A DNA stretch of 15,748 bases, taken from assembly GCA_029940235.1 (NCBI GenBank), contig JAOZRI010000020.1:1-15748 (forward strand). Direction: 5' to 3'. The number at the start of each line of letters is the position of its first letter. Within the stretch, counting starts at the first letter, position 1. This DNA comes from Desulfobacula sp. GTDB taxonomy: Bacteria; Desulfobacterota; Desulfobacteria; Desulfobacterales; Desulfobacteraceae. The notes beneath the pieces were generated by a model that searched no databases, was not told the origin of the DNA, and saw only the letters and a list, made by a program, of their open reading frames with translations. This document shows, one piece after another, positions 54 through 14,305 of the stretch. The position numbers were made by a program, and so were the translations under genes.

Positions 54-127
54 GAGTATTTGTGGATTCAGACAAAAATCGAGAGTCAGAAGTTTGTTCT
101 GAGTATCAGGTAAAAAGAATTTTAATT

Positions 128-175
128 TTAACCCCAAGGCAAAAAAAGTTTATAATATATTTGCCTTAAGGCAAA
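128..175. promoter_or_regulatory. Two palindromic sites 32 bp apart upstream of AAA_14 ATPase 1 (candidate operators)
   Basis: The proximal site TTTGCCTTAAGGCAAA (160-175) is a perfect 16-bp palindrome. The distal site at 128-143 matches it at 12 of 16 positions; its right half AAGGCAAA is identical and its left half has decayed. A 15-bp direct repeat beginning AAGGCAAAAAAAG (136-150 and 168-182) reflects the same spacing. The proximal centre is 13.5 bp upstream of the -35 box and the distal centre 45.5 bp, the same geometry as upstream of the paralog at 12988. Operator function is inferred. Confidence 0.6.
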
Positions 176-180
176 AAAAG

Positions 181-208
181 TTGACATGGTTGTTAATGGT
201 GTGATACT
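181..208 (+). promoter_or_regulatory. Sigma-70-type promoter of AAA_14 ATPase 1, leaderless layout
   Basis: A consensus -35 TTGACA (181-186), a 16-bp spacer and -10 GATACT (203-208) with an upstream TG (200-201, extended -10). The start codon at 217 begins 9 nt after the last -10 base, so transcription should start at or within two bases of the ATG. No purine-rich ribosome binding site precedes the ATG. Confidence 0.6.
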
Positions 209-216
209 CTTGGTTC

Positions 217-1392
217 ATGTTAAAGGATAGATATATAACAGATATTATTATCCAGGATATTTTGGAAAAAATGATCTTTATAGGGGGCCCCCGCCAGGTT
301 GGCAAAACAACCCTGTCCAAAGATATTATTGCACAAAAATTTGATGGTTTCCAATACTATAACTGGGATAACAGGCAGGATCGCAGGGAGATACTCAAAC
401 CGGGGTGGCCCGGGCAGGCCAGGATTTTGATATTTGATGAAATCCATAAATACAAACAGTGGAAATCCTTTATTAAAGGTGAATATGATAAATTAAAGGA
501 AAAATATAAATTCCTTGTTACCGGCAGTGCCCGTCTTGATGTATATCGACGGGGCGGTGATTCAATGCTTGGGCGGTATCATTATTATCGTCTGCATCCT
601 TTTTCCCTTGCAGAAGCCTGTGGAAAAACCAACCTGATTAAACCTTTTGATAGGATAGAAATATCTTCTGTAAATGAGATGGATATACTTTTGGCCCTTG
701 ATAAATTTGGCGGTTTTCCAGAGCCTTTTATCAAACAGAACGGCAGAACCCTTAGAAGATGGCAAAATGAACGTGTTGACAGGCTTATTAAAGAAGATAT
801 CCGTGATGTATCAGCCATAAGAGATCTTTCAAGTATGATGCTTTTATGCGACATGCTTCCAGACAGGGCAGGATCTCGTCTATCCATTAACTCCTTAAGG
901 CAGGATATACAGGTAAGCCATAAAGCTTTGACTAACTGGCTTAATATTTTTGAATCAATGTATTATTGTTTCAGGATCTATCCCCATGCAGGTAAAAATT
1001 TCAGGTCATTGAAAAAAGAACCAAAACTTTTTTTATGGGACTGGTCTGAAATAGGGGATGATGCAGCAAGATTTGAAAATATGATTGCCTCACATTTATT
1101 AAAATTTGTCCATTTTTTAAAAGATTATGAAGGCTATCGCATGGATTTGAAATATTTGAGAAGTGCTGAAAAAAAAGAGGTTGATTTTTTAATAACCTGT
1201 GATAATAAACCATGGTTTGCCGTTGAGGCAAAGCTCAATAAAACAGATGTTTCTCCAAATCTTCTCTATTTTAAATCAAAGCTTGACATCCCTTTTTTAT
1301 TTCAGGTTGTGAAAAAAGGTGGGGTTGACAGGTTTGTGGACAATAACATACGTGTTGTTTCTGCTGACAGGTTTCTTGCCGGGCTGATTTGA
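217..1392 (+). CDS. AAA_14/DUF4143 family ATPase, paralog 1
   Basis: A 391-residue P-loop ATPase with the usual layout of the AAA_14 (PF13173) plus DUF4143 (PF13635) family. Walker A is GPRQVGKT at 24-31, Walker B LIFDE at 71-75, and TGSAR at 102-106 is sensor-like. A winged-helix segment lies at about 223-245 (starting LSINSLRQDIQVSH). A PD-(D/E)XK-like signature follows: D323 in KEVDFLI, then E337 and K339 in VEAK. No signal peptide or membrane segment is seen, so it should be cytoplasmic. The substrate and biological role of this family are not established; the fold suggests ATP-dependent action on nucleic acid. The start at 217 fits the promoter and has no Shine-Dalgarno sequence. About half of its residues match the gene at 12988, and both end in FLAGLI. 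Its stop lies 5 bp from the stop of convergent lipA. Confidence 0.85.
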   Translation: MLKDRYITDIIIQDILEKMIFIGGPRQVGKTTLSKDIIAQKFDGFQYYNWDNRQDRREILKPGWPGQARILIFDEIHKYKQWKSFIKGEYDKLKEKYKFLVTGSARLDVYRRGGDSMLGRYHYYRLHPFSLAEACGKTNLIKPFDRIEISSVNEMDILLALDKFGGFPEPFIKQNGRTLRRWQNERVDRLIKEDIRDVSAIRDLSSMMLLCDMLPDRAGSRLSINSLRQDIQVSHKALTNWLNIFESMYYCFRIYPHAGKNFRSLKKEPKLFLWDWSEIGDDAARFENMIASHLLKFVHFLKDYEGYRMDLKYLRSAEKKEVDFLITCDNKPWFAVEAKLNKTDVSPNLLYFKSKLDIPFLFQVVKKGGVDRFVDNNIRVVSADRFLAGLI

Positions 1393-1397
1393 ATGTT

Positions 1398-2279
1398 TTA
1401 ACTGCTATACAACTGCTTTGCATTATAGGAGCTGCGGACAAAAGGGCCGGACGCAATTTTCTTAAATCCAATTTGCTGAGCTGCCTTTTCAAGCTCTTTA
1501 AATTCATCAGGGGTATAATATTTTTCAACTTTAAGGTGTGATTTTGTGGGCTGCATATATTGACCCACTGTTATTATACTGCATCCATGGTCATGAAGAT
1601 CTTGCATGGTTTGTTCAAGTTCTCCCATGGTTTCGCCAAGACCCACCATGATTCCTGATTTTATGGGCATTGAAACACCGGTTGAAGAGTTAATGGAATA
1701 AGCATTTTGCAGTAATTCAAGGGACTGGTAATAATTTGCCTCTGGCCTCACCCTGGAGTAAAGAGATGGTGTGGTCTCTATATTGTGGTTTAAAACATCA
1801 GGTTTTGCATGAATAACTATTTTCAGGGATTCAAGGTCTCCTTGAAAATCTGGAATTAAAACTTCAACTTTTGTGTTATTGGGCAAAAGTGATTTAATGG
1901 CTTTTATGGTATCTGCAAAATGTGCAGCTCCTCCATCGTCAAGGTCATCCCGTGTAACTGAAGTTACAACAATATATTTTAATTTCAGATCTCTTGCAGT
2001 CTTTGCAACTCTTAAGGGCTCATCAGGATCAACAGGCATTGGTAGCCTGTTTAAAATATTACAGAACCTGCAATTCCTGGTGCAGACACTTCCGAGAATC
2101 ATAAAAGTAGCTGTGTTTTTTGAAAAACACTCAAACATATTGGGACAGTTTGCTTCCTGGCACACAGTATGTAATTTTGCCTTGGACAGCAAATTTCTAA
2201 CCCTTTGATAATCCCCGCCCCTTGGAAGACTTTTTTTAAGCCATGGCGGCTTGTCGCTACCTTTTTTTTCACATCTCAT
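1398..2279 (-). CDS. lipA: Lipoyl synthase LipA
   Basis: Radical SAM enzyme that inserts two sulfur atoms at C6 and C8 of a protein-bound octanoyl group, making the lipoyl arm of GcvH. All signature elements are present in 293 residues, a normal length: the auxiliary iron-sulfur cluster cysteines C40, C45 and C51 (CQEANCPNMFEC), the radical SAM CxxxCxxC at C66, C70 and C73 (CTRNCRFC), and the C-terminal RSSY at 282-285 whose serine binds the auxiliary cluster. It is the last gene of the leftward gcv operon, 66 nt after lipB, and acts directly after LipB. The ribosome binding site is weak, but no other in-frame ATG lies nearby. No terminator is visible after the stop, which is only 5 bp from a convergent gene. 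Confidence 0.96.
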   Translation of the reverse strand: MRCEKKGSDKPPWLKKSLPRGGDYQRVRNLLSKAKLHTVCQEANCPNMFECFSKNTATFMILGSVCTRNCRFCNILNRLPMPVDPDEPLRVAKTARDLKLKYIVVTSVTRDDLDDGGAAHFADTIKAIKSLLPNNTKVEVLIPDFQGDLESLKIVIHAKPDVLNHNIETTPSLYSRVRPEANYYQSLELLQNAYSINSSTGVSMPIKSGIMVGLGETMGELEQTMQDLHDHGCSIITVGQYMQPTKSHLKVEKYYTPDEFKELEKAAQQIGFKKIASGPFVRSSYNAKQLYSS

Positions 2280-2345
2280 TTTTTAAACCCGACTTCCCGT
2301 ATTTTGATCTTTCGGCCTCATCCTTTATTTTTCATGCCTCACTAT

Positions 2346-3230
2346 TTAAACCTGACTCCTCACCACTAACTCAAAATCAAACACCAGCGAGAAATATTTT
2401 TGAAAACTTTTTTTAACCCTCTCCATGAGCTGAATGGATGAACAATCATCCTGCATGGCTTTTAATTGAATGAAAGCAGATTCATCACAGCTTTTATTTT
2501 TTAATAACTCTTTTTTAAGTGAAGTCATGGATATATCATTAAGCCCGCAGGGATTTATCCATGAAAAAGCTTCAAGATCAGGATTGATATTCAATGCAAG
2601 GCCATGCATGGAAATTCCTCTTTTAACACTGATGCCAACGCTTCCAATTTTTGCATTGCCAACCCAGATCCCATGGTTTTTTCTGTCTCTGTCAGCTTTG
2701 ATATTAAAATCACTTGCTGTGAGTTTCATGATCTCTTCAAGGCCGTGGACAAAATCTTTTACGCTGATTCTGTTTTTTTCAAGATCAATAACAGGGTATA
2801 AAACTGCCTGACCAGGACCGTGCCAGGTGATATTACCGCCCCGATCAGTCTTGACAATATCAACATTTTTTGAATTTAAAAACTCGTTGGAAACAGTTAA
2901 ATTTTCCAGCCCTCCTCTTTTACCAAGGGTGAAAACAGGTGGATGTTCAACAAAAAAAACAGTCTCTCCACTATATTTCTGGTCAGGAAGAGAGCAGGGG
3001 GATAACTTGGCTCTATCTTGTATAACTTCAATGGTTTTAATTTGAAGTGCAAGCGCTTTGTTATATTCTAAAACTCCAAGGTCTTTAAACAGAGCAAAGC
3101 GCTTTTTTTTATCCCTGCAAGGGCCACTCTTTTGACAATCCATATTTTCATATTCTAATCTGTCATATTCTGATTTTTCAGGTTCCGATCTTACAGATTC
3201 CAACATACCGGCTGCTAACCGCACAGGCAT
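2346..3230 (-). CDS. lipB: Octanoyltransferase LipB with N-terminal extension
   Basis: Transfers octanoate from acyl carrier protein to the acceptor lysine of lipoyl domains, here most likely GcvH, making the substrate of LipA. Family motifs are clear: RGGNITWHGPGQ from 130 to 141, the catalytic lysine K194 in AKIGSVGISV and the catalytic cysteine C228 in NPCGL. The protein has 294 residues against about 210-230 for typical LipB. The family core begins near residue 47, leaving a charged N-terminal tail of some 45 residues (rich in E, K, D, R, with two Cys), and the C-terminus is also somewhat long. The start at 3230 is favoured by AAGGA a few bases upstream and by a 16-nt overlap with the end of gcvPB, implying translational coupling; an internal ATG at 3143 has no good ribosome binding site. 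Confidence 0.94.
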   Translation of the reverse strand: MPVRLAAGMLESVRSEPEKSEYDRLEYENMDCQKSGPCRDKKKRFALFKDLGVLEYNKALALQIKTIEVIQDRAKLSPCSLPDQKYSGETVFFVEHPPVFTLGKRGGLENLTVSNEFLNSKNVDIVKTDRGGNITWHGPGQAVLYPVIDLEKNRISVKDFVHGLEEIMKLTASDFNIKADRDRKNHGIWVGNAKIGSVGISVKRGISMHGLALNINPDLEAFSWINPCGLNDISMTSLKKELLKNKSCDESAFIQLKAMQDDCSSIQLMERVKKSFQKYFSLVFDFELVVRSQV

Positions 3231-4672
3231 GGTTTCCTTGCTGCTGCAACTTCATCAAGCCTTGTGACCTTTGTTAAAAAAGGAGCCCTGCGCAAGGTTT
3301 CAGGATCTGTCCTGGCCTCTTTGGCAATTGCCTTTACAGCATCAATAAATTGATCAATATCCTCTTTAGATTCTGTCTCTGTGGGTTCAACCATGAATGC
3401 ACCCTCCACAACAAGGGGAAAATAGACCGTTGGAGGATGAAAACCATAATCTAAAAGTCTTTTAGCCATATCCATTGTTGTAATGTGATGCTCTTTTTGT
3501 ATTGCATCATTAAACACACATTCATGCATGCATGGCAGATCATAGGGAAGATTCAGGGTTTCTTTTAAACTCTCCTTAATATAGTTGGCATTAAGGACTG
3601 CAAGCTTGCTTGCATTGGTTAACCCTTTTGCCCCCATGGAAAGAATATAGGAAAATGCCTTGATCAGAACCCCGAAATGGCCGTAAAAAGTGTGAAGTCT
3701 GCCTATGGTATCAGGGCAGTCTGTTAAAAATTCATAGGAATCTTTGTTTTTTATAACCCTTGGAACAGGTAAAAAAGGTTCAAGTTTTTTTACAACGGCA
3801 ACGGGTCCAGAGCCCGGGCCTCCACCGCCATGGGGAGTTGAAAATGTTTTATGCAGATTTAGATGGAGGACATCAATCCCTATTTCACCAGGCTTTACAA
3901 TACCCATGATTGCATTCATATTGGCTCCATCACCATAAACAAGACCTCCCTTTGCATGGACAATATCTGCAATTTTTTTAATATTGGATTCAAAAAGCCC
4001 AAGTGTGTTGGGATTTGTTACCATGATCCCTGCAGTATCTTCATCCATGACAGCTTTAACATCTTCTGGTTCAAGGATTCCATTTTTTCCGGATTTAATA
4101 TTTACAGATTCATAGCCGCACAGGCTTGCACTGGCAGGGTTGGTGCCGTGGGCTGTATCGGGAATAATGATTTTAGAACGCTGCCTGCCGTTTTTTGCAT
4201 GGTATTTATGGATCATGAGCATGCCGGCAAGTTCGCCATGGGCTCCTGCAGCAGGCTGGAGTGTAACAGCATGAAAGCCGGTTATCTCCTTTAGATATTG
4301 CTCAAGGTCATACATCAGTTTTAATGATCCCTGGGAATAGCTGTTCTCAGTAAAAGGATGGGCAGATGCAAAGCCTTTGCGTGAAGCCTGCACTTCATTT
4401 GTTTTAGGGTTATATTTCATTGTGCACGATCCAAGGGGATACATGCCTGAATCCACACCAAAATTCCATTGGGAAAGACGGGTATAATGGCGAACAACAT
4501 CAAGTTCAGAAAGCTGGGGCAGTTCCGGGGCATCACCAACAAGTGTTTTATCAAGCTGGGCTCTTTTAACATCTGCTTTGGGCAGAGACATGGCACAGCG
4601 ACCATTGCAGCTTTTATCCCAGATTTCCGGTTCATTGAAAACAAGGCCTTTTGTTCCAGGTTGGTTTTCCAT
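3215..4672 (-). CDS. gcvPB: Glycine dehydrogenase (decarboxylating) subunit 2
   Basis: C-terminal half of the split P-protein. With GcvPA it forms the PLP enzyme that decarboxylates glycine and passes the aminomethyl group to the lipoyl arm of GcvH. The PLP-binding lysine is K275 in HLNLHKTFSTPHGGGGPG, followed by the glycine-rich loop typical of the family. GMYPLGSCTMKYNPK (77-91) and PDTAHGTNPA (171-180) are also characteristic. Length 485 is normal. Its ATG overlaps the gcvPA stop by one base (TAATG), with GGAGG upstream, so the two subunits are translationally coupled and probably made in equal amounts. Its end overlaps the lipB start by 16 nt. Confidence 0.97.
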   Translation of the reverse strand: MENQPGTKGLVFNEPEIWDKSCNGRCAMSLPKADVKRAQLDKTLVGDAPELPQLSELDVVRHYTRLSQWNFGVDSGMYPLGSCTMKYNPKTNEVQASRKGFASAHPFTENSYSQGSLKLMYDLEQYLKEITGFHAVTLQPAAGAHGELAGMLMIHKYHAKNGRQRSKIIIPDTAHGTNPASASLCGYESVNIKSGKNGILEPEDVKAVMDEDTAGIMVTNPNTLGLFESNIKKIADIVHAKGGLVYGDGANMNAIMGIVKPGEIGIDVLHLNLHKTFSTPHGGGGPGSGPVAVVKKLEPFLPVPRVIKNKDSYEFLTDCPDTIGRLHTFYGHFGVLIKAFSYILSMGAKGLTNASKLAVLNANYIKESLKETLNLPYDLPCMHECVFNDAIQKEHHITTMDMAKRLLDYGFHPPTVYFPLVVEGAFMVEPTETESKEDIDQFIDAVKAIAKEARTDPETLRRAPFLTKVTRLDEVAAARKPCLCG

Positions 4673-6006
4673 TATTGCACCTCCTTTACCAGTTGATCAA
4701 TATCCAGTTTTGAGATGGTCTCTGTGGCACAGAAAAGATAATGATTTTTAAGTTCCGGGTAAAATGACTCAAGGTCAATGCCTGCAAAGATATTTTTATC
4801 ATTGATCAGGGATTCTTTTTTTGCTTTAAAACTATCCGGCACTTTAACAACAAATTCATTGAAAAAAGGTGAATTAAAAGCCGGTTTAAAGCCTGCTTTT
4901 TCAAGACCTGTTTTAAGATAGAAAGCTTTGTCATGATTCTGTTGTGCAATCTCTCTGATGCCGATTTTACCTGTGGTAGCAAGATAGATAGCTGCTGTCA
5001 TTGCATTGAGGCCATTATTGGAACAGATATTGGAAGAGGCTTTTTCTCTTCTGATATGCTGCTCTCTTGTGGCAAGGGTTAAGACATATCCTTTATCACT
5101 GTTGGAATCCAGAGTTTTTCCCACAAAACGACCGGGAAGGTTTCTCATCTGTTTTTTAGATCCTGCAAGAAGTCCAAGTCCGGGACCTCCAAATGATTTT
5201 GCAATGCCAAGACTTTGTCCTTCACCTGCAACAAGATCAGCACCAAAACTGCCTGGGTTTTTTAAAAGCCCATAGGCAAGTGCTTCGGTAAAAGAGGTGA
5301 TAAATAAAATCTTTTTATCAGCAGCAACTGTTTTAAATGATGCCAAATCTTCAACATTTCCAAAAAAATTGGGAGACTGGACAGCAATGCCTGCAATGTC
5401 ATCCATTTTTTCAAGGGCTTTTATATCTGTCACGCCCTTGTCAGTATATGGAATTTCAACAATCTCATACCCTGCAGGCCCGAGATAGGTCTGCATGATC
5501 TGCCTGTGATGTGGATGGATAAGAGAAGAGACAGCAATTTTGTTGGATGTTCTATGTTTTCGCAGGGCAATAAGGCAGGCTTCGGCAAGGGCAGTTCCAC
5601 AATCATAGTGTGATGCAGTGGCAACATCCATACCAAGAAGCTGTGTTACCATGGTCTGGAACTCATAAATACCCTGCAGGGTTCCCTGACTTACTTCGGG
5701 TTGGTAAGGAGTATAGGCTGTCATGAATTCTGATCTTGAAATCAGATAGGGAATGATTGCAGGTATATAGTGATCATAGGAGCCGGCCCCAATAAAATAT
5801 TTACAATTTTTATTGGCAGCATTTAAAGAAGCAAGCTCTTCCATGTGGGTATCAAGCTCCCATTCAGACAAAGCTTGTGGAATATCCATCTTCTGTTTTG
5901 TTTTAAGATCATCGGGTATGCAATTAAACAGATCATCAAGGCTGGAAAGCCCTGAAACTTTAAGCATACTTTCAATATCTTCTCTGGTGTGTGGAAGATA
6001 GCGCAT
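4672..6006 (-). CDS. gcvPA: Glycine dehydrogenase (decarboxylating) subunit 1
   Basis: N-terminal half of the split P-protein, partner of GcvPB in the glycine cleavage complex. The start MRYLPHTREDIESML matches the conserved N-terminus of the family, and the length of 444 is usual. This subunit carries no PLP lysine and contributes to the heterotetramer and active-site cleft. AAGGA lies 7 nt before the ATG, and only 5 nt separate it from the gcvH stop. The split arrangement, rather than a fused GcvP of about 950 residues, is common in Gram-positive bacteria, archaea and many Desulfobacterota, in line with the proposed host. Confidence 0.97.
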   Translation of the reverse strand: MRYLPHTREDIESMLKVSGLSSLDDLFNCIPDDLKTKQKMDIPQALSEWELDTHMEELASLNAANKNCKYFIGAGSYDHYIPAIIPYLISRSEFMTAYTPYQPEVSQGTLQGIYEFQTMVTQLLGMDVATASHYDCGTALAEACLIALRKHRTSNKIAVSSLIHPHHRQIMQTYLGPAGYEIVEIPYTDKGVTDIKALEKMDDIAGIAVQSPNFFGNVEDLASFKTVAADKKILFITSFTEALAYGLLKNPGSFGADLVAGEGQSLGIAKSFGGPGLGLLAGSKKQMRNLPGRFVGKTLDSNSDKGYVLTLATREQHIRREKASSNICSNNGLNAMTAAIYLATTGKIGIREIAQQNHDKAFYLKTGLEKAGFKPAFNSPFFNEFVVKVPDSFKAKKESLINDKNIFAGIDLESFYPELKNHYLFCATETISKLDIDQLVKEVQ

Positions 6007-6011
6007 GGTTT

Positions 6012-6410
6012 TTATCCTTTCAGCATGTCAAGGTAAGCACCTTTATCAAGGAGAGCTTCAAACTCGGATGTATCATCAATCTTCACCTTGATAAGCCAGC
6101 CATTATCATAGCAGGATTCATTAACAAGTTCAGGAGCATCTTCAAGCGCTTCATTGATCTCAACTATCTCCCCTGCAACGGGCATATATATCTCTGAAAC
6201 AGCTTTTACTGATTCAACACTTCCAAATTCATCACCCTTTTCAAAGGTGTCACCAACTTCGGGCAGCTCCACAAAAACAATCTCTCCAAGCTGATCCTGG
6301 GCATAGTCATTTATTCCAATTGTTATGACTCCATCTGAATTTTTTGCCCATTCATGATCTTTTGTGTATTTTAAATCTTCAGGCAAGTTAAGGTCGTTAA
6401 TCTCTTTCAT
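6012..6410 (-). CDS. gcvH: Glycine cleavage system H protein
   Basis: Lipoyl carrier that shuttles the aminomethyl intermediate between the P, T and L proteins. The lipoylated lysine is K69 in GSVESVKAVSEIYMPV, the classic H-protein signature, and the acidic stretch after it (EINEALEDAPELVN) is also conserved. At 132 residues it is a complete, typical H protein. A G-rich ribosome binding site (GAGGGG) precedes the ATG at 6410. K69 is the expected substrate of the LipB and LipA encoded downstream in the same operon. The gene is separated from gcvT by a 104-nt AT-rich gap, the longest in the operon. Confidence 0.97.
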   Translation of the reverse strand: MKEINDLNLPEDLKYTKDHEWAKNSDGVITIGINDYAQDQLGEIVFVELPEVGDTFEKGDEFGSVESVKAVSEIYMPVAGEIVEINEALEDAPELVNESCYDNGWLIKVKIDDTSEFEALLDKGAYLDMLKG

Positions 6411-6514
6411 GGGAACCCCCCTCTGTTTTAGTTATTAATTTTTAGTTATTAATTTTGAATTGAGGATGACTCTATTTTTAAATAAATATATTTCATTTAT
6501 TAAAAATAAAGAAT
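6411..6514 (-). repeat. AT-rich gcvT-gcvH spacer with tandem and inverted repeats
   Basis: A 14-bp unit TTTAGTTATTAATT occurs twice in tandem (6427-6440 and 6441-6454). An 11-bp inverted repeat pairs AATTTTGAATT (6451-6461) with AATTCAAAATT (6519-6529, inside the last codons of gcvT), enclosing a second AT-rich hairpin (6475-6486 against 6496-6506 with one bulge). No T-run marks it as an intrinsic terminator in the operon direction. Such a spacer could serve transcript processing or uneven expression of gcvT and gcvH, but that is inference. Confidence 0.5.
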
Positions 6515-7840
6515 TTAAAATTCAAAATTTTTCCTTGCTGTTCTATCCGGTCTTATATCCTTTACAATATTGACTTTTATGGCTCTTTTTTTATCTTTAA
6601 GTGTTAATGAACAATTGTTATCATTGATGGCGCTGAAATCAAACTTTTTATCAACCATGACAAAACCACAGCTTAAGCCTTTTATTTTCAAACCTTCAGG
6701 GATATTCTGCGAATTTATGCTTATGATTTTGTCATTATGCCAGGTTATCCCCATATCTGTGACACAGGTCAAAACTTTTCCCACTATATTGCCTTTGCTG
6801 TCAATAACCTGACTGTTTTTTCCAGGAGTTATTTTTCTTAAGGAGTCTCCCACAAAGGGATAGGTAAATGGATCACAGTCATGGGACAAAAGAGCATCAG
6901 ACCCAATAAATTTTTTTGTAAAACCTGTTTTACCTTTATTAAAGGCAAGGGCAAAATCCCAGGGATGATTTATAAACTTCCAGTTTCCAATATCCTGATG
7001 GGATAGAGGCAGGCATGCTCCGGTTCTAAGAGAATCCCTTGCAGCAAGACCGCATGCTGTGATGCCAAATTCTTCACCTGCTTTTAAAGTATCTCTCCAC
7101 AGCTTTACAACTGCTTCAGATCTGATAAATATTTCAAAACCAAATTCCCCTGTATACCCAGATCTTGATAATAAGATGGGAGTGCCATCCTTTAATGTGA
7201 CATTTAATTTTTTTGACCCGGATTTATCAGATTCAGATTTATTAGATCCGGATTCACCAGACCCGGAGTCGCCAGGCAGGGATTTATCAAAATTACCTTT
7301 AAAAGAAAAATAGGGCATCTGCTTAAGAACCATATCAGGGTTTTTGATGAGTCTTGCAAGAATTTGGGCACTATTTATACCTTGAATATCCATCTTTGCA
7401 GTTGTTCCGGACAGATCTTCAATATTTACGCCGGAGCCTTTGATTTTATTTGAATCTAAATGTTTTGCAATGGCTGCTCCCATGCCGGCATTGACACATA
7501 TCATGAAAAAAATATCATCAAATTTATAAATAATGGCATCATCTATACAGTGACCATTCATATCAAGAAAAGCCCCATATATACATCGTCCAGCCCCTAA
7601 CCTTGAAATATCCCTTGTAAAACAATAATTTAATAATTCAAAAGAGTCTTTGCCTTTAACAGTGATACACGCCATGTGACTTGTGTCAAAGATTCCAGCA
7701 GATTTTAAAACTCCAAGATGTTCATTTTTAACTCCGGTTTCATACCAGAGAGGCATGTCAAATCCGCCAAAATCTGCCATGTTGGCATTTGCTGATTTGT
7801 GCCATCTATATAAAGGTGTGGTTTTTAAGCTCCTGGCCAT
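6515..7840 (-). CDS. gcvT: Aminomethyltransferase (T protein) with low-complexity insertion
   Basis: Takes the aminomethyl group from GcvH, releases ammonia and forms methylenetetrahydrofolate. Recognised by FGGFDMPLWY (24-33), FDTSHM (51-56), the HCIDDAIIYKF block near 98-107 holding the aspartate equivalent to the catalytic one, SRSGYTGEFGFEIF (225-238) and GLAARDSLR (264-272). At 441 residues it is about 75 longer than typical GcvT. One cause is a Ser/Gly/Asp/Lys-rich insertion at about 185-212. After GLAARDSLR the usual xEAxMxLYGxE pattern is replaced by TGACLPLSHQD, a departure from the E. coli type that may mark a subfamily. AAGGA precedes the ATG, 11 nt after the stop of the regulator gene. 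Confidence 0.92.
   Translation of the reverse strand: MARSLKTTPLYRWHKSANANMADFGGFDMPLWYETGVKNEHLGVLKSAGIFDTSHMACITVKGKDSFELLNYCFTRDISRLGAGRCIYGAFLDMNGHCIDDAIIYKFDDIFFMICVNAGMGAAIAKHLDSNKIKGSGVNIEDLSGTTAKMDIQGINSAQILARLIKNPDMVLKQMPYFSFKGNFDKSLPGDSGSGESGSNKSESDKSGSKKLNVTLKDGTPILLSRSGYTGEFGFEIFIRSEAVVKLWRDTLKAGEEFGITACGLAARDSLRTGACLPLSHQDIGNWKFINHPWDFALAFNKGKTGFTKKFIGSDALLSHDCDPFTYPFVGDSLRKITPGKNSQVIDSKGNIVGKVLTCVTDMGITWHNDKIISINSQNIPEGLKIKGLSCGFVMVDKKFDFSAINDNNCSLTLKDKKRAIKVNIVKDIRPDRTARKNFEF
7205..7285. repeat. Degenerate short repeats encoding the GcvT linker
   Basis: Within gcvT the motif (G)AYCCGGA recurs at about 7215, 7245 and 7260, interspersed with TTTATCAGATTCAGATTTAT-like sequence. 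It encodes the Ser/Gly/Asp/Lys-rich segment at residues 185-212. The pattern is what slippage or duplication of a short unit would leave; the reading frame is intact. Confidence 0.5.
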
Positions 7841-7851
7841 GGTTTGTCCTT

Positions 7852-8295
7852 CTAGAAAATATAGGGAACTTTCAGATTATAGGATTTATACACAACAAAT
7901 GTCTCCACAGATCCAATTCCTTTTATATTAGCAATCTCCTCGGTGTAAAATTCAAGCAGGCCAAAACCCTTTTTAAAAAGAACAAGAATCATGAGATCAT
8001 ACCTGCCGGTAACAACGTTTACAGAGATAACTCCCTTAAGTTTGCTGATCTCTTCACCTTTTTCAACAAGGTTCATCTCTGTAAGTTTTATACCTATAAT
8101 AACAACACGATGGTCGGGCAGGGTGGCGGGATCAACAAGGCCGCAGATTTCAAGGACACCCTCTTTCTGGAGATTATTTACCCTGGTTCTAACTGTGTTT
8201 TCTGTGATGGCAAGCTTGTCAGCAATTTTTTTAAAGGATTTTTTACCCTCTTTTAATTCCCGGATAATATTTATGTTGGTTTTATCGATTTTCAT
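7852..8295 (-). CDS. Lrp/AsnC-family transcriptional regulator
   Basis: A 147-residue protein with the two-part Lrp/AsnC layout. The N-terminal winged helix-turn-helix has its recognition region at about 20-43 (FKKIADKLAITENTVRTRV). A C-terminal RAM-type ligand-binding domain follows, with the family's hydrophobic pattern (VTGRYDLMILVLFK and GIGSVETFVV). It is the first gene of the gcv operon, 11 nt before gcvT, so it probably controls glycine cleavage and itself, perhaps with glycine as effector; the ligand is not shown by the sequence. GAGG lies before the ATG at 8295. The promoter upstream carries a palindrome that this protein could bind. Confidence 0.92.
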   Translation of the reverse strand: MKIDKTNINIIRELKEGKKSFKKIADKLAITENTVRTRVNNLQKEGVLEICGLVDPATLPDHRVVIIGIKLTEMNLVEKGEEISKLKGVISVNVVTGRYDLMILVLFKKGFGLLEFYTEEIANIKGIGSVETFVVYKSYNLKVPYIF

Positions 8296-8348
8296 GATTT
8301 CCTCGTTTTTTTTAATAAAAACTTATGGAAAAACAAATTTATTTATTT

Positions 8349-8374
8349 ATTATTGAAAAATACCCTTCAATAAT
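8349..8374. promoter_or_regulatory. Palindromic candidate operator over the gcv operon promoter
   Basis: ATTATTGAA (8349-8357) and TTCAATAAT (8366-8374) form a perfect 9-bp inverted repeat with an 8-bp centre. It spans the -10 box, the predicted start point and much of the spacer of the leftward promoter, where a bound regulator would block polymerase. AT-rich palindromes suit Lrp/AsnC proteins, and the first gene transcribed encodes one. Binding is inferred. Confidence 0.55.
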
Positions 8375-8385
8375 GATATTGTCAA
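8357..8385 (-). promoter_or_regulatory. Promoter of the lrp-gcvT-gcvH-gcvPA-gcvPB-lipB-lipA operon
   Basis: On the - strand there is TTGACA (8385-8380), a 17-bp spacer and TATTTT (8362-8357). Transcription should start near 8350, giving a leader of about 55 nt with (TTTA)n-like sequence before the GAGG ribosome binding site of the regulator gene. This is the best match to a sigma-70 promoter in the intergenic region. Confidence 0.6.
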
Positions 8386-8410
8386 ATAAAATTTTGAAAA
8401 ATTGAATATT

Positions 8411-8419
8411 TGTTATAGG
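8411..8419 (+). promoter_or_regulatory. Candidate extended -10 promoter of lpdA
   Basis: TGTTATAGG contains an extended -10 element (TG, one base, TATAGG at 8414-8419). A partial -35, TTGAAA, lies at 8394-8399, but its 14-bp spacer is short. The predicted start near 8426 would coincide with the base of the long leader hairpin. Weak evidence. Confidence 0.3.
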
Positions 8420-8423
8420 ATAT

Positions 8424-8499
8424 TTGACAGGTTGTTACATAATACAAATTTTTCCAACGCAGAAATTGGGAAAATTGGTGTTGTGTAACAGCCTGTCGA
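8424..8499 (+). repeat. 34-bp near-perfect hairpin in the lpdA leader
   Basis: The arm at 8424-8457 pairs with 8466-8499 around an 8-nt loop (CGCAGAAA). Of 34 positions 33 pair as + strand RNA, with one A-G mismatch. Five of the pairs are U-G wobbles with U always on the 5' arm; on the opposite strand these would be A-C mismatches, so the structure favours RNA in the lpdA direction. No T-run follows, so it is not an intrinsic terminator. It ends 12 nt before the GGAG ribosome binding site of lpdA. It could be an mRNA stability or RNase III element, or a small MITE-like insertion; no clear target duplication is seen. Confidence 0.75.
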
Positions 8500-8523
8500 T
8501 TAAAAACAATGGAGATGGATCAA

Positions 8524-9972
8524 ATGTCAGTAAAAATTATTATTATTGGAGGGGGACCCGGAGGCTATGTCGCAGCTTTAAGGGCAGCAGCTCTGGGGGG
8601 CAGTGTCACCCTGATTGAAAAAGAAAACCTTGGTGGAACCTGTCTTAATAAAGGGTGCATCCCTTCAAAAATTATGAAAAACAGTGCAGATGTTTTACTT
8701 AAATTTTTAAAGGCTGATAATTTTGGTATCAATGTCCAGGGCAGTGTTACTCCTGATATCCTTAAATTGATGGAAAGAAAAAATAAGATACTTGATACCC
8801 AGAGAAAAGGCATAGATTCACTGCTGAAGAAAGCCGGCGTCATTATGGAAAGGGGCAGGGCAAAGATAAAATCTTCCACTGCAGAATCAAAAGGAGTTAT
8901 TGAAGTTGATTTAAACGATGGCAGCACAAAAGAGATTGAATATGATAAACTTATTATTGCCACGGGAACCAAACCTTTAAATGTTAAGGATTTCCCATTT
9001 GATCATGATAATATCCTCTCTTCCGATGATCTTCTTGAGATAGAGCAGATTCCAAGCTCCCTTCTCATAGTGGGAGGCGGTGTGATTGGATGTGAATTTG
9101 CCTTTATTTTTTCTGCCCTTGGCTCAAAAGTGACAATTGTGGAAGGCATGTCAAGATTATTGCCTCTGCCATCGGTAGATGAGGAAATCTCCAAACTGCT
9201 ATTGCGGGAGATGAAAAAAAGAAAGATTAAGGTTTTTTGTGATACAGTTGTAAAATCAACATCCATGCATGATGATGAAATTTCAATCAGCCTTGATGTG
9301 TCTCCCTTTACTGATAATCCAAAACCCAAAGCATTAAAGTTTGAATCACTTAAAGCCCAAAAAATGGCTGTGTGTATTGGAAGAAAAGCTTTATCATCTG
9401 ATCTTGGGCTGGAAAATATCAATGTTAAAACCGACTCTTCAGGCTGGATTCAAGCCAATGAAAGATTGGAAACAAGTGTAAAAAATGTTTATGCCATCGG
9501 TGATATCTTGGGCCCTAATAAAGTTATGCTTGCCCATGTGGCTTCCCATGAAGGGGGGATTGCAGCCCAGAATGCAATGGGTGCAAACAAGAGTATGCAT
9601 TATGATGTCATCCCCGGAGCAATTTTCACCATGCCGGAAATCGGAACAGTGGGCCTGAGTGAAGCCCAGGCAAAGGCAAATGGCTGTCAGATTAAAACAG
9701 TGTCCATGAATTTTCGTACCCTTGGAAAGGCCCATGCCATTGATGAGATCACAGGCATGGCAAAAATGATTATTGAAAAAGAGAGTAGAAAAATCCTTGG
9801 TGTGCATATTATGGGAGCCCATGCAACGGATCTAATAGCTGAAGTAACTCTTGCAATTCAAAAAGGAATGACAGCCGATGATATTGCCAGCACCATCCAT
9901 GCCCATCCAACTTTGTCAGAGATTTTTGGCGAGTTATCCATGAAAACCTGTGATATGGCAATACATGGCTAA
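8524..9972 (+). CDS. lpdA: Dihydrolipoyl dehydrogenase (L protein)
   Basis: Flavoprotein that reoxidises the dihydrolipoyl arm of GcvH with NAD+. From the start used here (482 residues) the FAD-binding GGGPGG is at 9-14, the redox disulfide is C40 and C45 in GGTCLNKGCIPSK, the NAD-binding GGGVIG is at 184-189, the second FAD contact is in YAIGDI, and the active-site pair is H461 and E466 in HAHPTLSEIFGE. All are intact. The frame is open to an ATG at 8509 (487 residues), but GGAG at 8511-8514 lies 9 nt before the ATG at 8524 and nothing precedes 8509, so 8524 is preferred. It is divergent from the gcv operon, so it probably serves glycine cleavage, though it could also serve other 2-oxoacid complexes. 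Confidence 0.95.
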   Translation: MSVKIIIIGGGPGGYVAALRAAALGGSVTLIEKENLGGTCLNKGCIPSKIMKNSADVLLKFLKADNFGINVQGSVTPDILKLMERKNKILDTQRKGIDSLLKKAGVIMERGRAKIKSSTAESKGVIEVDLNDGSTKEIEYDKLIIATGTKPLNVKDFPFDHDNILSSDDLLEIEQIPSSLLIVGGGVIGCEFAFIFSALGSKVTIVEGMSRLLPLPSVDEEISKLLLREMKKRKIKVFCDTVVKSTSMHDDEISISLDVSPFTDNPKPKALKFESLKAQKMAVCIGRKALSSDLGLENINVKTDSSGWIQANERLETSVKNVYAIGDILGPNKVMLAHVASHEGGIAAQNAMGANKSMHYDVIPGAIFTMPEIGTVGLSEAQAKANGCQIKTVSMNFRTLGKAHAIDEITGMAKMIIEKESRKILGVHIMGAHATDLIAEVTLAIQKGMTADDIASTIHAHPTLSEIFGELSMKTCDMAIHG

Positions 9973-9981
9973 AAGTGTATA

Positions 9982-9998
9982 TCCTTCTAACTGAAGGA
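9982..9998. terminator. Small hairpin between convergent lpdA and FmdB-type gene
   Basis: TCCTTC (9982-9987) and GAAGGA (9993-9998) form a 6-bp stem with a 5-nt loop in the 43-bp gap between the two convergent stops. No strong T-run follows on either strand, so it would be a weak bidirectional terminator at best. Confidence 0.3.
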
Positions 9999-10015
9999 CG
10001 CTGTTGTTATCCTGC

Positions 10016-10213
10016 TCATGAAAAACCTGTACCAGGGGAGCCTGTTGCACACTTTCCAATACTGCTGCCTCCCATAAAACTTGCAACGCTCATTTTTTTT
10101 GAAATTTTCTTAGAGCTGCACTCAGGACAGGAGATATCTTGATCGTCACCCGCAAAAACAAGTTTTTCAAACTCATGTGCACATTTATTGCATTTATATT
10201 CAAAAATAGGCAT
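10016..10213 (-). CDS. FmdB-family small zinc-ribbon protein
   Basis: A 65-residue protein with the N-terminal pattern of FmdB regulators (PF09723): MPIFEYKCNKCAHEFE, then SCPEC. The zinc ligands are C8, C11, C29 and C32. The tail after residue 45 is Gly/Ser-rich with one further cysteine, as in many family members (GGSS...). The family is often annotated as regulatory, but its function is mostly unknown. AAAGGAG stands before the ATG at 10213. It lies 27 nt downstream of the gene at 10241 in the same direction, presumably co-transcribed, and its ribbon is nearly duplicated at the C-terminus of that protein. Confidence 0.85.
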   Translation of the reverse strand: MPIFEYKCNKCAHEFEKLVFAGDDQDISCPECSSKKISKKMSVASFMGGSSIGKCATGSPGTGFS

Positions 10214-10240
10214 GGAATACTCCTTTTTACCTTTGCTTTA

Positions 10241-10807
10241 TTAAGCAGCACTCACTTTCTTTGAAACTTCTTTGGTGTTGCATTCAGGACATGAAATATC
10301 TTGACTGTTATCCTCAGAAATATGGTGTTCAAACTCATTTTTACATTTATTACATTTATATTCAAAAATTGATATGGGAAGATTACTTTTCTTCTTTGCT
10401 TCCTCAATCATTGAACGGATTTTTACAAATGTCTGCGACACAGATTCAGGAAATTTGGGATCATCAAGTACAAATGCTTCAATATCAGCAACACTGTAGC
10501 TTAAGTAGCGAATCTGTGTTTTACCCTCTTTGGAAAAAACCATAACGAATTTTGGCATAAAGATGGCACGTTCGGGATTCATGGTCAGGCTTTTATCTGC
10601 TTTGGTGGGTTTGCAGATCTGCAGCATATGAAGATCAAAACTGTCTGGAACCTCGCCACCATGTTCACGGAAAGTATTTTTCATGTTCATTGAATCAAAA
10701 TTATTAACAACAAAAGCATATTTTTTTACAGTGTCAGTAAAATCAGCTACAAACTGGCTTACACTTTTGTCACTTTCGGTAATATATAGATCATTGTTAC
10801 GGTTCAT
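10241..10807 (-). CDS. DUF302-like domain fused to FmdB-type zinc ribbon
   Basis: A 188-residue protein in two parts. Residues 1-110 resemble the DUF302 fold (PF03625), with a LHMLQICKPTKADKSL-type segment (59-74), the strand IFMPKFVMVFSKEGKTQIRYL and no membrane segment; this assignment is by pattern only. Residues 145-188 are a zinc ribbon with ligands C152, C155, C173 and C176 that repeats the neighbouring gene product (IFEYKCNKC, QDISCPEC, SKK.S). AAGGAG precedes the ATG at 10807. Function unknown; DUF302 proteins have been linked to small-molecule or metal binding, and the ribbon suggests zinc or a nucleic-acid or protein contact. It is the first gene of a probable two-gene transcript. 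Confidence 0.8.
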   Translation of the reverse strand: MNRNNDLYITESDKSVSQFVADFTDTVKKYAFVVNNFDSMNMKNTFREHGGEVPDSFDLHMLQICKPTKADKSLTMNPERAIFMPKFVMVFSKEGKTQIRYLSYSVADIEAFVLDDPKFPESVSQTFVKIRSMIEEAKKKSNLPISIFEYKCNKCKNEFEHHISEDNSQDISCPECNTKEVSKKVSAA

Positions 10808-11033
10808 ATTCTACTCCTTAATATGGTATATTTATTATCTGTTTTTAAAGTGTGATCTATTTTTCCACTGTGCCAAATGGATGTGGATTGTGCAATAAAC
10901 TTTATTAAATTCCTTATTTAGTAGCAACTAATAGACCAACAAGATTAAAAAGAGTATTAAATTTGCATAACATATTGAAAATTAAGTTATTTTTAACTTT
11001 TTTTATTTTAGAACAATAAAAAAGATATTGTTC

Positions 11034-11075
11034 ATAACGTTACCATAACGTTACCATACAAGGAGGGTAACGTTA
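11034..11075. repeat. Phased array of three TAACGTTA palindromes
   Basis: TAACGTTA occurs at 11035-11042, 11046-11053 and 11068-11075, with start-to-start distances of 11 and 22 bp, so all sites lie on about the same face of the helix. The first two belong to a tandem 11-bp repeat ATAACGTTACC (11034-11055). The second and third also form a perfect 10-bp inverted repeat (11046-11055 with 11066-11075) around a loop containing AAGGAG. It looks like a multi-site operator; the binding protein and target gene are unknown. Confidence 0.65.
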
Positions 11076-11290
11076 AATAAAAGCTAATTTATTACTCCCT
11101 AAGCCAGGATTAAAAAAACACTTCTAAAAAAATTATTAAAATAAAACAAAGGGTTATATGAAAATAAAATAAAATCTAAAACAATTCATCCCTCTGGCAT
11201 TAAGAATGCAATGATAGATATTCAGTTATTCAGAAAATAAAGTAAAGGCATTTACTTACCTCCAGAATTCTGATTAACCACCTCACCGTA

Positions 11291-11341
11291 AACCGGGGCA
11301 GTATAAATACCGCCAGTAGCTGCCCCGGTTCTTCTTTTTTT
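11291..11341 (+). terminator. Strong intrinsic-terminator-like hairpin with no visible upstream gene
   Basis: AACCGGGGCAG (11291-11301) and CTGCCCCGGTT (11320-11330) form an 11-bp GC-rich stem with an 18-nt loop, followed by CTTC and seven Ts (11335-11341). On the + strand this is a good Rho-independent terminator, yet the nearest + strand gene (lpdA) ends 1.3 kb upstream past two opposite-strand genes. On the - strand it lies 76 nt after the gspF stop but lacks a T-run in that direction. Confidence 0.55.
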
Positions 11342-11406
11342 ACTACACTTTCCATATGAATACTTTAAAAACTAAAGCGGGAAACCCGCAAGTTATCAGT
11401 TGTCAG

Positions 11407-12636
11407 TTATTGAATAAGTTGATTTATTTCAAATATGGGCAGGCAGATGGCAAGTATAATACCGCCAACCACAATACCCATTATTAAAATAATAAGAGGT
11501 TCTATTAACGATGTGGCCGCAGTTACAGCAGTATGGACATCTTTTTCAAAAAGATCGGCTGTCTTTTCAAGCATTTTTTCAAGCTCACCACTGGTTTCTC
11601 CGACTTTAATCATCTGGGCGGCAAGGGAAGGGAATACCCTGTTGTCAGCAAGCACATCACCTAACTCACCACCTTGCTCCACTGTGTCACAGGCCTTTGA
11701 GATAAGTTCAAACATTACCTTGTTCCCGGCAATACTTTTTGTGATATGCATGGCAGTCAGCATGGGGACACCATTTTCCAGCAAAGAGCCAAGAGTCCTT
11801 GTAAATCTTGCAGCAATAATTTTTTTTAACAGATTCCCTGAAATTGGCAGAGAAATTAAAAGGTTGTCAATAAAATAGGCACCTTTATTGGTTCTTCGAA
11901 TTAAAAACAGAGCTAAAAAAAGTATAAAGGGAGTCATGAGAATACCCCACCACCATGATTTAAAAAAAGAGCTTACAGAAATCAGGATAATGGTTGGCAG
12001 GGGCAGAGTCTGATTCATGTCAGAAAATATATCTACAATGCCAGGCACAACATAGGTTAACAGAACAAGTAAAACTCCAAATCCAATAAAAGACATTAAA
12101 ACAGGGTATGCCAGTGAAGCCTGGATTTTGTTTTTAGAATCTTCTCTGTTCTCATTAAAATCTGCAAGCCGTTCAAGAACAATTTCCAGGGTTCCTGAAG
12201 ACTCTCCTGCATTTACCATATTGATAAAAATAGGTGAAAAGACATTTGGATACAAGGCAAGGGCATTGGCAAAACTGCTGCCCTCTTCAATGGCGTCTTT
12301 TATCCTTGAAAGCACTCTTTGCATGGTTTTTGATCTGGTCTGGGGAACAAGGGTTGAAACAGCTTTAACAAGTGGGAACCCGGCAGACAAAAGTGTTGAC
12401 ATCTGCCGTGTAATCATGGAGAGCTCTGACGAGCTTATTCTTGTGAAAAAATTTATTTGCGGTAAAAATGATTTTTTATTTTTTAAAGCTGTGCTTGACT
12501 CAATCTTGTTTAAATCTATGGGAAAAATTTTTTGCTGCCTGAGTCTGGATTTAGCCGCAGTACTGCTTTCGGCATCTATAATCCCGGAAACATTTTTTCC
12601 TTTATTGTCAAAAGCTTTATATTCAAATACAGCCAT
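11407..12636 (-). CDS. gspF: GspF/PilC-type inner-membrane platform protein
   Basis: A 409-residue type II secretion or type IV pilus inner-membrane protein. It starts MAVFEYKAFDNKGK, the usual N-terminus, and has two T2SSF domains (PF00482), at about 70-195 (SELSMITRQMSTLLSAGFPL) and 272-400 (ARFTRTLGSLLENGVPML). Three hydrophobic segments lie near 178-203, 226-247 and 379-403. This protein normally couples the assembly ATPase (GspE/PilB) to pseudopilin assembly, but no gspE, gspG or other secretion gene is in the window. There is no ribosome binding site before the ATG at 12636; a TTGACA/TATATT promoter places the start point at the ATG. A pilC-like role cannot be excluded. Confidence 0.9.
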   Translation of the reverse strand: MAVFEYKAFDNKGKNVSGIIDAESSTAAKSRLRQQKIFPIDLNKIESSTALKNKKSFLPQINFFTRISSSELSMITRQMSTLLSAGFPLVKAVSTLVPQTRSKTMQRVLSRIKDAIEEGSSFANALALYPNVFSPIFINMVNAGESSGTLEIVLERLADFNENREDSKNKIQASLAYPVLMSFIGFGVLLVLLTYVVPGIVDIFSDMNQTLPLPTIILISVSSFFKSWWWGILMTPFILFLALFLIRRTNKGAYFIDNLLISLPISGNLLKKIIAARFTRTLGSLLENGVPMLTAMHITKSIAGNKVMFELISKACDTVEQGGELGDVLADNRVFPSLAAQMIKVGETSGELEKMLEKTADLFEKDVHTAVTAATSLIEPLIILIMGIVVGGIILAICLPIFEINQLIQ

Positions 12637-12642
12637 AATGAA

Positions 12643-12670
12643 AATATACTTAATAACCCGGCATTGTCAA
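12643..12670 (-). promoter_or_regulatory. Promoter of gspF, leaderless layout
   Basis: On the - strand there is TTGACA (12670-12665), a 16-bp spacer and TATATT (12648-12643), then six bases and the ATG at 12636. Transcription starting seven bases after the -10 would begin at the start codon itself. No Shine-Dalgarno sequence is present. The stretch 12671-12898 beyond it shows no supported gene, only a short direct repeat of AAGCCT around 12758-12772. Confidence 0.6.
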
Positions 12671-12898
12671 TTGGATTCATCAATGGTTGTAATATTTCTT
12701 TGTGCTGATGTTTTTGGATTTACAAACAAAAAAACGTGTCAAAGGTTTTTGCGAAAAGCCTAATAAGCCTTGCGTTTTAAGGGAAAGCATGGTTTTATTA
12801 AAAATTATTCCCAAAAAAATTCCCGGTATTAGATGTAACCGACAGGGCGGAGCTATGCCACTAATATTTTGAAATTGAGACCTTTGAATAATATTCAA

Positions 12899-12950
12899 TT
12901 TTGTATATGCATACAAAATAGTTCTTAGTATTTTGTATGCATATACAAAA
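12899..12950. promoter_or_regulatory. Two palindromic sites 32 bp apart upstream of AAA_14 ATPase 2 (candidate operators)
   Basis: TTTTGTATATGCATACAAAA (12899-12918) and TTTTGTATGCATATACAAAA (12931-12950) are each imperfect palindromes (8-bp arms) and exact inverted copies of one another; the identity extends to a 22-bp inverted repeat with an 8-bp spacer (12899-12920 with 12929-12950). The site centres are 32 bp apart and 45.5 and 13.5 bp upstream of the -35 box, identical to the arrangement before the paralog at 217 although the sequences are unrelated. Confidence 0.7.
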
Positions 12951-12953
12951 TAC

Positions 12954-12981
12954 TTGACATAAAAATGTTTATCATTACAAT
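12954..12981 (+). promoter_or_regulatory. Promoter of AAA_14 ATPase 2, leaderless layout
   Basis: TTGACA (12954-12959), a 16-bp spacer and TACAAT (12976-12981), then six bases to the ATG at 12988. The predicted start point is the A of the start codon. No ribosome binding site lies between. Confidence 0.7.
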
Positions 12982-14276: not shown

Positions 14277-14305
14277 TTGCATATTTTCACAAAATTGCAT
14301 ATTAT
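14277..14305 (+). promoter_or_regulatory. Candidate promoter of AAA_14 ATPase 3 with nearby repeats
   Basis: TTGCAT (14277-14282), a 17-bp spacer and TATTAT (14300-14305), six bases before the ATG at 14312. TTGCATATT is repeated at 14277-14285 and 14295-14303. TGTGAAAA (14256-14263) and TTTTCACA (14284-14291) form an inverted repeat, and TGTG-N6-CACA (14256-14269) lies just upstream of the -35. These match the promoter consensus less well than the other two ATPase promoters. Confidence 0.45.

Follow-up and report, generated by a model that had tools for sequence, protein, structure and literature searches.

The window analyzed here, a stretch of 15,748 nucleotides from Desulfobacula sp. (contig JAOZRI010000020.1 of assembly GCA_029940235.1), carries two related ATPase genes, P1 and P2, each of which is preceded by two short palindromes with centres 32 bp apart. 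P1 (217..1392, forward strand) encodes an AAA_14 ATPase domain, a winged helix-turn-helix (HTH) at residues 204-273 and a DUF4143 domain, and P2 (12988..14160, forward strand) has the same composition, its winged HTH being placed by alignment to P1. The two proteins are 52% identical. PF13173 (AAA_14) and PF13635 (DUF4143) score 92.3 and 77.5 bits in P1 and 86.2 and 81 bits in P2, above the gathering cut-offs of 27 and 28.1. The draft genome that holds the window amounts to 3.0 Mb in 615 contigs at 78.7% completeness, and the nearest named matches of P1 are metagenome-assembled genomes labelled Desulfobacula.

Upstream of each gene lies a pair of 26-nt direct repeats with a start-to-start distance of 32 (125-150 and 157-182 before P1, 12898-12923 and 12930-12955 before P2). 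The distal P1 site (127..144, centre 135.5) consists of TTTAACCCC followed by AAGGCAAAA and the proximal site (159..176, centre 167.5) of ATTTGCCTT followed by AAGGCAAAA. For P2 the corresponding halves are ATTTTGTATAT and GCATACAAAAT at the distal site (12898..12919, centre 12908.5) and ATTTTGTATGC and ATATACAAAAT at the proximal site (12930..12951, centre 12940.5); these two sites are mirror images of each other at 18 of 18 positions, with a 23-nt inverted repeat at 100%. Both pairs are followed by a candidate promoter, assigned by its resemblance to the consensus: TTGACA (181-186), a 16-bp spacer and GATACT (203-208) for P1 (181..208, forward strand), and TTGACA (12954-12959), a 16-bp spacer and TACAAT (12976-12981) for P2 (12954..12981, forward strand). 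The proximal centre is 13.5 bp from the start of TTGACA at both genes. The original prediction, made from the letters of the window, had claimed these centres, the 32-bp spacing, the -35 positions and the 16-bp spacers, together with unrelated operator letters for P1 and P2, and every coordinate as well as the difference in letters is confirmed from the sequence. It had also taken both sites of each pair to be palindromic, but the distal P1 site is an imperfect palindrome in which 4 of 8 inner pairs are complementary.

In the draft genome, the proximal P1 site is the sole zero-mismatch match to TTTGCCTNNAGGCAAA and the two P2 sites are the only such matches to TTTTGTATNNNNATACAAAA; P1, P2 and a third paralog of the same genome (L003) have three different operators. 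At up to two mismatches TTTGCCTNNAGGCAAA is found at 17 places, compared with 6 for the reversed control. Three places have one mismatch, two of them inside reading frames and one starting 73 bp before an open reading frame (ORF), and no second site was seen by eye within 90 bp on either side of them. The P2 pattern at up to three mismatches is found at 113 places compared with 121 for the control; the weak matches inspected were among the matches listed, and further pairs may exist among the other weak matches. DUF4143 matches at E 1e-10 number up to 18 per genome in the genus, and 10 in the window's own draft genome. P3 is a third and distant gene 3' of P2, likewise with AAA_14 and DUF4143: a canonical DUF4143 ATPase at 14312-15484 that begins 151 bp past P2 in the same direction, and upstream of which the best repeat spacing is 34, not 32. 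Separately, a 17-nt inverted repeat (94%) has one arm at 12888-12904, where it overlaps the distal P2 operator, and the other at 14289-14305, just before P3. Three origins are conceivable: coincidence in AT-rich DNA, a half-site that belongs to P3, or the end of an element.

The original prediction proposed that homologs be checked for paired palindromes and their spacing. We gathered relatives from the window's own genome, 58 related genomes, 395 genomes of the phylum and a species-genome collection, used the distance to the P-loop to fix each start codon, and then searched the DNA before it for pairs of similar palindromes with spacings between 14 and 70 bp. The best spacing in the first set is 32 for 43 of 132 loci if only even centres are allowed and for 62 of 132 with both centre types. 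After clustering at 75% identity it is 32 in 31 of 71 clusters, and in 20 of the 23 that score above 12, while the same scan on Markov shuffles gives 32 in 2 of 213, none scoring above 12. The first set excludes L041, L057, L136, L147, L148 and L149 (no usable start), L008 and L150 (no hit), seven duplicates, L005 and L081 (repeats of P2) and L019 (too little upstream DNA). Two predictions were then fixed before the replication loci were fetched; another 30 loci had been collected earlier but were still unexamined. The first of these held: 32 is the mode in the replication set, with 31 of 83 loci (101 loci minus L175 and L237 without P-loop or start, 15 with repeated upstream DNA and one that was too short), and it is the best spacing for 14 of the 36 replication proteins that are less than 75% identical to the first set.

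A scan that is blind to palindromes, and simply compares direct repeats of 18 bases, picks exactly 32 bp as the best spacing in 62 of 102 non-redundant relatives (less than 75% identical), with a mean log-odds of 6.92 at 32 compared with 0.66 at the next spacing, 31. If the scorer also accepts mirror pairs, 71 of the 102 loci reach a score of at least 19 at spacing 32, while the other spacings from 18 to 70 bring on average 5.7 and at most 21 loci to that score. The 31 loci that stay below 19 at spacing 32 count against the autoregulation model proposed below. The palindrome-blind scan gives 32 in 3 of 198 neighbouring ORFs of the fetched loci and in 2 of 37 other DUF4143 genes (L285 and L291, with scores of 7.0 and 6.5), and because of these low counts we restrict the 32-bp excess to the P1/P2 subfamily: among the genes sampled, spacing and restriction are both established. 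The other DUF4143 genes were sorted by alignment profile, and two of the 37 (L006 and L007) are also in the first set of 132, though outside the 102-locus and covariation sets by the 30% identity limit. An earlier P3-type control, which left out L191, L194, L201 and two genes that were too short, had given 32 in 2 of 20, both of them mis-assigned: L181 is P2 itself and L202 a P1-type gene located on the same stretch. Among the relatives there is no general excess of a third site at a further 32 bp; at L145 the two best spacings are 32 and 64.

Relatives with a 32-bp pair come from at least ten phyla. Among named loci, 29 of the 32 evaluated pass a 99% shuffle threshold and L127, L141 and L144 fail; 12 of the 44 named loci were left out (seven duplicates, four without a usable start, one without a hit). 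The taxa in the record titles of the named loci are Desulfobacterales, Nitrospirae, Deferribacteres, Fibrobacteres, Armatimonadetes, Patescibacteria and relatives, Aminicenantes, Acidobacteriota, Bdellovibrionales, Elusimicrobia, Verrucomicrobia and Leptospiraceae. The 32-bp pair is thus old or widely exchanged. Across these relatives exact 32-bp pairs recur with unrelated letters, and the spacing is not random. The idea has thereby withstood the computational refutation named in the original prediction, namely homologs that lack paired palindromes or space them at random. One could still imagine that the upstream DNA is an unbound promoter relic that merely descends with the gene, and close orthologs do have upstream letters in common. 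However, the letters are replaced wholesale while the 32 bp are kept even where protein identity to P1 has fallen to 34-40%, and within each locus one copy continues to match the other, which leaves such a relic scarcely credible.

The placement of the pair against the promoter is less rigid. We measured the proximal centre from the start of the -35 in the 51 strict loci whose promoter match is good. It lies near -13 in 11 loci (the register of P1, P2 and their kin), near +1 in 6, near +17 to +19 in 14 and near +33 to +34 in 4, in total 35 of 51, and is scattered in the other 16. The common centres (-15/-13, +1, +17/+19 and +33/+34) are approximately 16 bp, or 1.5 helical turns, apart. In 39 of the 51 loci the proximal site extends to the -35 or is located downstream, whereas at P1 and P2 both sites are upstream of the -35. 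Orthologs of P2 also differ among themselves: the distal centre is at -79 from the start codon in L002, L015 and L016 but at -47/-48 in L014, L038, L206, L133 and L134, a shift of about one 32-bp unit downstream. Given the several registers, the scattered loci and the shifted orthologs, we reject a fixed distance to the -35 as conserved geometry; the predicted 13.5 bp is real at P1 and P2 but is no family constant. The invariant is the 32 bp, while letters and placement against the -35 vary. A loose promoter register combined with a rigid 32 bp is to be expected if a protein assembly, rather than RNA polymerase, dictates the distance. At L022, L028 and L034 the -35 TTGACT forms the centre of a palindrome that resembles AAATAGTC-TT-GACTATTT; visual inspection suggests a second AATAGTC-like half-site 32 bp downstream, near the start codon.

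The relative orientation of the two sites carries some information about symmetry. Mirror pairs in the strict sense (at least 16 of 18 positions, with at most 12 in the forward comparison) are found in 7 of 74 non-redundant loci (L243, L025, L055, L242, L061, L209 and L245) and the converse, direct but not mirror, in two; neither extreme occurs in 1500 shuffles. A dyad-symmetric dimer-of-dimers would be expected to select mirror pairs whose outer half-sites differ from the inner ones. A general preference for mirror over direct (38 to 22, with 14 ties) is not stronger than in shuffles (208 to 137), which counts against the proposed assembly, so the argument rests on the extreme cases.

The original prediction gave each ATPase a winged helix. 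A confident AlphaFold2 model of P1 shows this fold at residues 204-273, with a recognition helix at 235-247, and P2 follows by alignment to P1. The ATPase core and winged helix of P1 superpose on 2fna and 2qen (a comparison mainly of residues 1-281), the archaeal ATPases SSO1545 and PABY2304, at a sequence identity of 16-17%; a sequence search of the PDB returned no close relative (best E 0.0072). To our knowledge no operator or autoregulation has been described for these or for STAND ATPases. Across 92 proteins the Walker A residues G24, R26, Q27, G29, K30 and T31, the Walker B residues D74 and E75, and D323 are invariant, and E321, E337 and K339 are kept at 90% or more. We read E321-x-D323 ... 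E337-x-K339 in P1 as a predicted nuclease motif of the PD-(D/E)XK-like kind.

With conserved nuclease-type residues (E321, D323, E337 and K339) in a gene that is multi-copy and patchy, the paired sites might instead be places where the ATPase-nuclease loads or cuts, whether for marking self-DNA or as the end of a mobile element, and lie near the promoter by coincidence. The inverted repeat that links part of the distal P2 operator with the DNA before P3 would also suit this idea. However, the sites occupy few favoured registers to the -35 (35 of 51 loci), a repeat of the operator at the far end of the P1 gene was sought and not found, and matches to P1 number no more than 2 among plasmid records (E up to 1e-40) and 3 among phage records (E up to 1e-10). 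We therefore find loading or cutting sites highly unlikely.

If the ATPase itself reads the operator, the letters should follow its recognition helix. They are wholly different between clades, and the half-site consensus sorts by helix group: TTTGCC or TTTGCT for VSH[KR]A[VL], TTGTAT for VNFRTV, TTGCAT for VNHRTV, ATGAAGT for VSIHTVKH, TCGGaaT for CSDKTVKR, TTACGA for VSVDTIRR and TTCaGGT for ASHEAV. To quantify this, we compared pairwise similarity of operator half-sites with similarity in sliding protein windows, with overall protein similarity removed. With the best site calls (mirror pairs allowed) and all pairs, the helix windows rank first of 380-384 at all four thresholds (37-104 loci, r 0.19 to 0.42), and at threshold 20 in the combined data none of 1000 permutations reaches the helix value. 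This permutation test is lenient because operators are shuffled over all loci without regard to the tree. Strict calls with the register kept likewise put the helix first of 380-384 for windows of 8 and 12 residues at three thresholds, and at rank 3, 5 and 1 for windows of 16 residues. The helix window also came first in the earliest scan (40 loci) and in the first-pass discovery set, where 3 of 500 permutations reach it. Among pairs less than 50% identical, the best site calls place it at rank 1 or 2 when either of the two looser thresholds is applied.

Several results weigh against this covariation. For the same pairs below 50% identity, the ranks at the two strictest thresholds are 1, 5, 5 and 10, i.e., first place is lost in 3 of 4 scans, and strict calls give ranks from 15 to 113. 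In first-pass combined data the helix is third in one set and not among the top windows listed in the other, and with loose site calls (77 loci) it is not first. The replication set alone (40-46 loci), which is smaller and comes from one class, places the helix at 24 of 384 and 67 of 380 at threshold 19 and at 4 of 384 and 28 of 380 at threshold 20; helix windows alone are matched there by 88 and 256 of 1000 permutations, and the top window of the first pass was 204-215, not the helix. The second of our two predictions, that the helix would be on top, thus failed in the replication set, since the helix is not top-ranked there. The covariation of palindrome and winged helix that the original prediction suggested examining is accordingly present in the combined data but not leading in the replication set alone. 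In the combined data it is established that operator similarity tracks the recognition helix better than any other stretch of the protein, and because the result hinges on a correct register of the sites and on the breadth of the first set, we regard the evidence as good without considering the matter closed. Convergence provides the cleanest single case: L055 and L059 are 36-37% identical to P2, share its VN[FH]RTV helix, and carry the two most P2-like operators among the 101 loci less than 48% identical to P2. The same two also head the lists for the P2 orthologs L014 (99 loci) and L038 (103 loci).

The covariation also bears on whether a separate regulator binds the sites in place of the ATPase. 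Tandem 16-bp palindromes three turns apart are a known arrangement: in the available part of PMC12051234, NrdR boxes are two 16-bp palindromes that are separated by 15-16 bp and centred three helical turns apart, and NrdR is a nucleotide-binding repressor that binds both boxes as a tetramer. The pairs at P1 and P2, 32 bp apart, share the three turns, although layout alone makes no NrdR site. NrdR, as that text describes it, combines a zinc ribbon with an ATP-cone and acts on ribonucleotide reductase genes (PMC12051234), whereas P1 and P2 combine an AAA ATPase, a winged HTH and a nuclease-type domain, and have letters that are private per gene with the spacing alone in common. Neither a zinc ribbon nor an ATP-cone is found in P1 or P2, for which Pfam reports AAA_14 and DUF4143 only, and they are not NrdR. 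A separate factor that binds here as NrdR binds upstream of other genes is also hard to reconcile with letters that change from one paralog to the next within a genome, and from clade to clade, at constant spacing, with site letters that follow the ATPase's own helix in the combined data, and with the lack of an excess of pairs at other DUF4143 genes. In the window no regulator gene directly adjoins P1 or P2 (P1 lies at the contig end). We consider a separate regulator unlikely.

A second functional parallel is type Ia ParA. As described in the accessible portion of PMC8465637, this ATPase has a winged HTH and controls its own promoter, its dimers bind cooperatively to repeated inverted motifs, and the motif letters differ among plasmids F, P1 and P7 while their relative positions are similar. 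The likeness to the present genes, as far as that text goes, is a self-regulating winged-HTH ATPase (proposed here) with varied letters at similar positions. The same text also shows the differences: ParA motifs are overlapping hexamers 26-29 bp apart that are bridged by one dimer, whereas here each site is palindromic, and ParA has its winged HTH at the N-terminus and ParB as corepressor, whereas here the HTH is central (204-273) and no partner gene was recognised in the window. Pfam shows no ParA ATPase domain in P1 or P2, only AAA_14 and DUF4143, and they are not type Ia ParA.

The proteins also resemble a candidate defence system. The PDC-S01 models of PADLOC match P1 with a best E of 3.8e-46, P2 with 6.9e-54 and P3 with 4.3e-107, and the likeness lies in an ATPase fused to a domain for which we take the PD-(D/E)XK label from the consulted part of PMC12988326. 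The same part ranks PDC-S01 as the fourth most common defence across prokaryotes, states that most such candidates in the core defensome still await validation, and contains no mention of regulation that we could find (PMC12988326). However, P3 matches the models far better than P1 or P2, and P3-type and other sampled DUF4143 genes lack the 32-bp excess. The literature searched on DUF4143, PDC-S01, AAA_14 palindromes and STAND/AAA autorepression, mostly without subscription papers, describes no such operator.

Between P1 and P2 are lipoate genes, glycine-cleavage genes and others. A 133-nt direct repeat of 77% identity occupies 10083-10215 and 10245-10377, and the zinc-ribbon gene at 10016-10213 resembles a partial duplicate of the 3' end of the DUF302/zinc-ribbon gene at 10241-10807. 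The GcvT-like gene at 6515-7840 has a Ser/Asp/Lys-rich repeat stretch at 7220-7306 (GDSGSGESGSNKSESDKSGSKK).

We propose, with a probability of roughly 0.75, that a dimer-of-dimers of the AAA_14/DUF4143 ATPase binds its own paired operator and autoregulates. An ATPase dimer would read each palindrome through two recognition helices, and two such dimers, 32 bp or three helical turns apart on the same face of the DNA, would be held together at the promoter by contacts of the protein body, forming a dimer-of-dimers with dyad symmetry. Because the assembly would set the 32-bp distance, the spacing could remain constant during the joint drift of operator letters and helix, and each paralog would retain a private switch. 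The recurring 32-bp pairs and the helix covariation thus support a conserved assembly with diverged specificity and self-regulation, as originally suggested, and from them we infer direct binding by the ATPase and the tetramer. Each protein probably controls its own gene. Repression is the presumed sign, given the 39 of 51 loci with the proximal site at or downstream of the -35; activation would suit P1 and P2 too, because both of their sites are upstream of it. Any coupling to the ATP state or to nuclease activity is speculation.

A bolder reading, which we hold only tentatively and think rather doubtful, is that a defence enzyme is stored on its operator: the ATPase-nuclease would occupy its own 32-bp pair as a closed, dyad-symmetric tetramer that keeps both gene and nuclease off. 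A change in nucleotide state or capture by invading DNA would then dissolve the assembly, so that derepression and nuclease release become one event. If this were true, mirror pairs with unlike half-sites would be the imprint of the tetramer's symmetry, and the joint drift of helix and operator would keep the paralogs of a genome from silencing each other.

DUF4143 ATPases are common but nearly unstudied, and in the literature searched DUF4143 is named in a single paper. The fixed 32-bp operator pair gives one subfamily a concrete predicted activity, i.e., specific DNA binding with a named helix and a known site. The correspondence between helices and half-sites provides natural specificity pairs, in which a winged HTH changes its target while the assembly is unchanged, and suggests how one genome may carry several paralogs without cross-talk.

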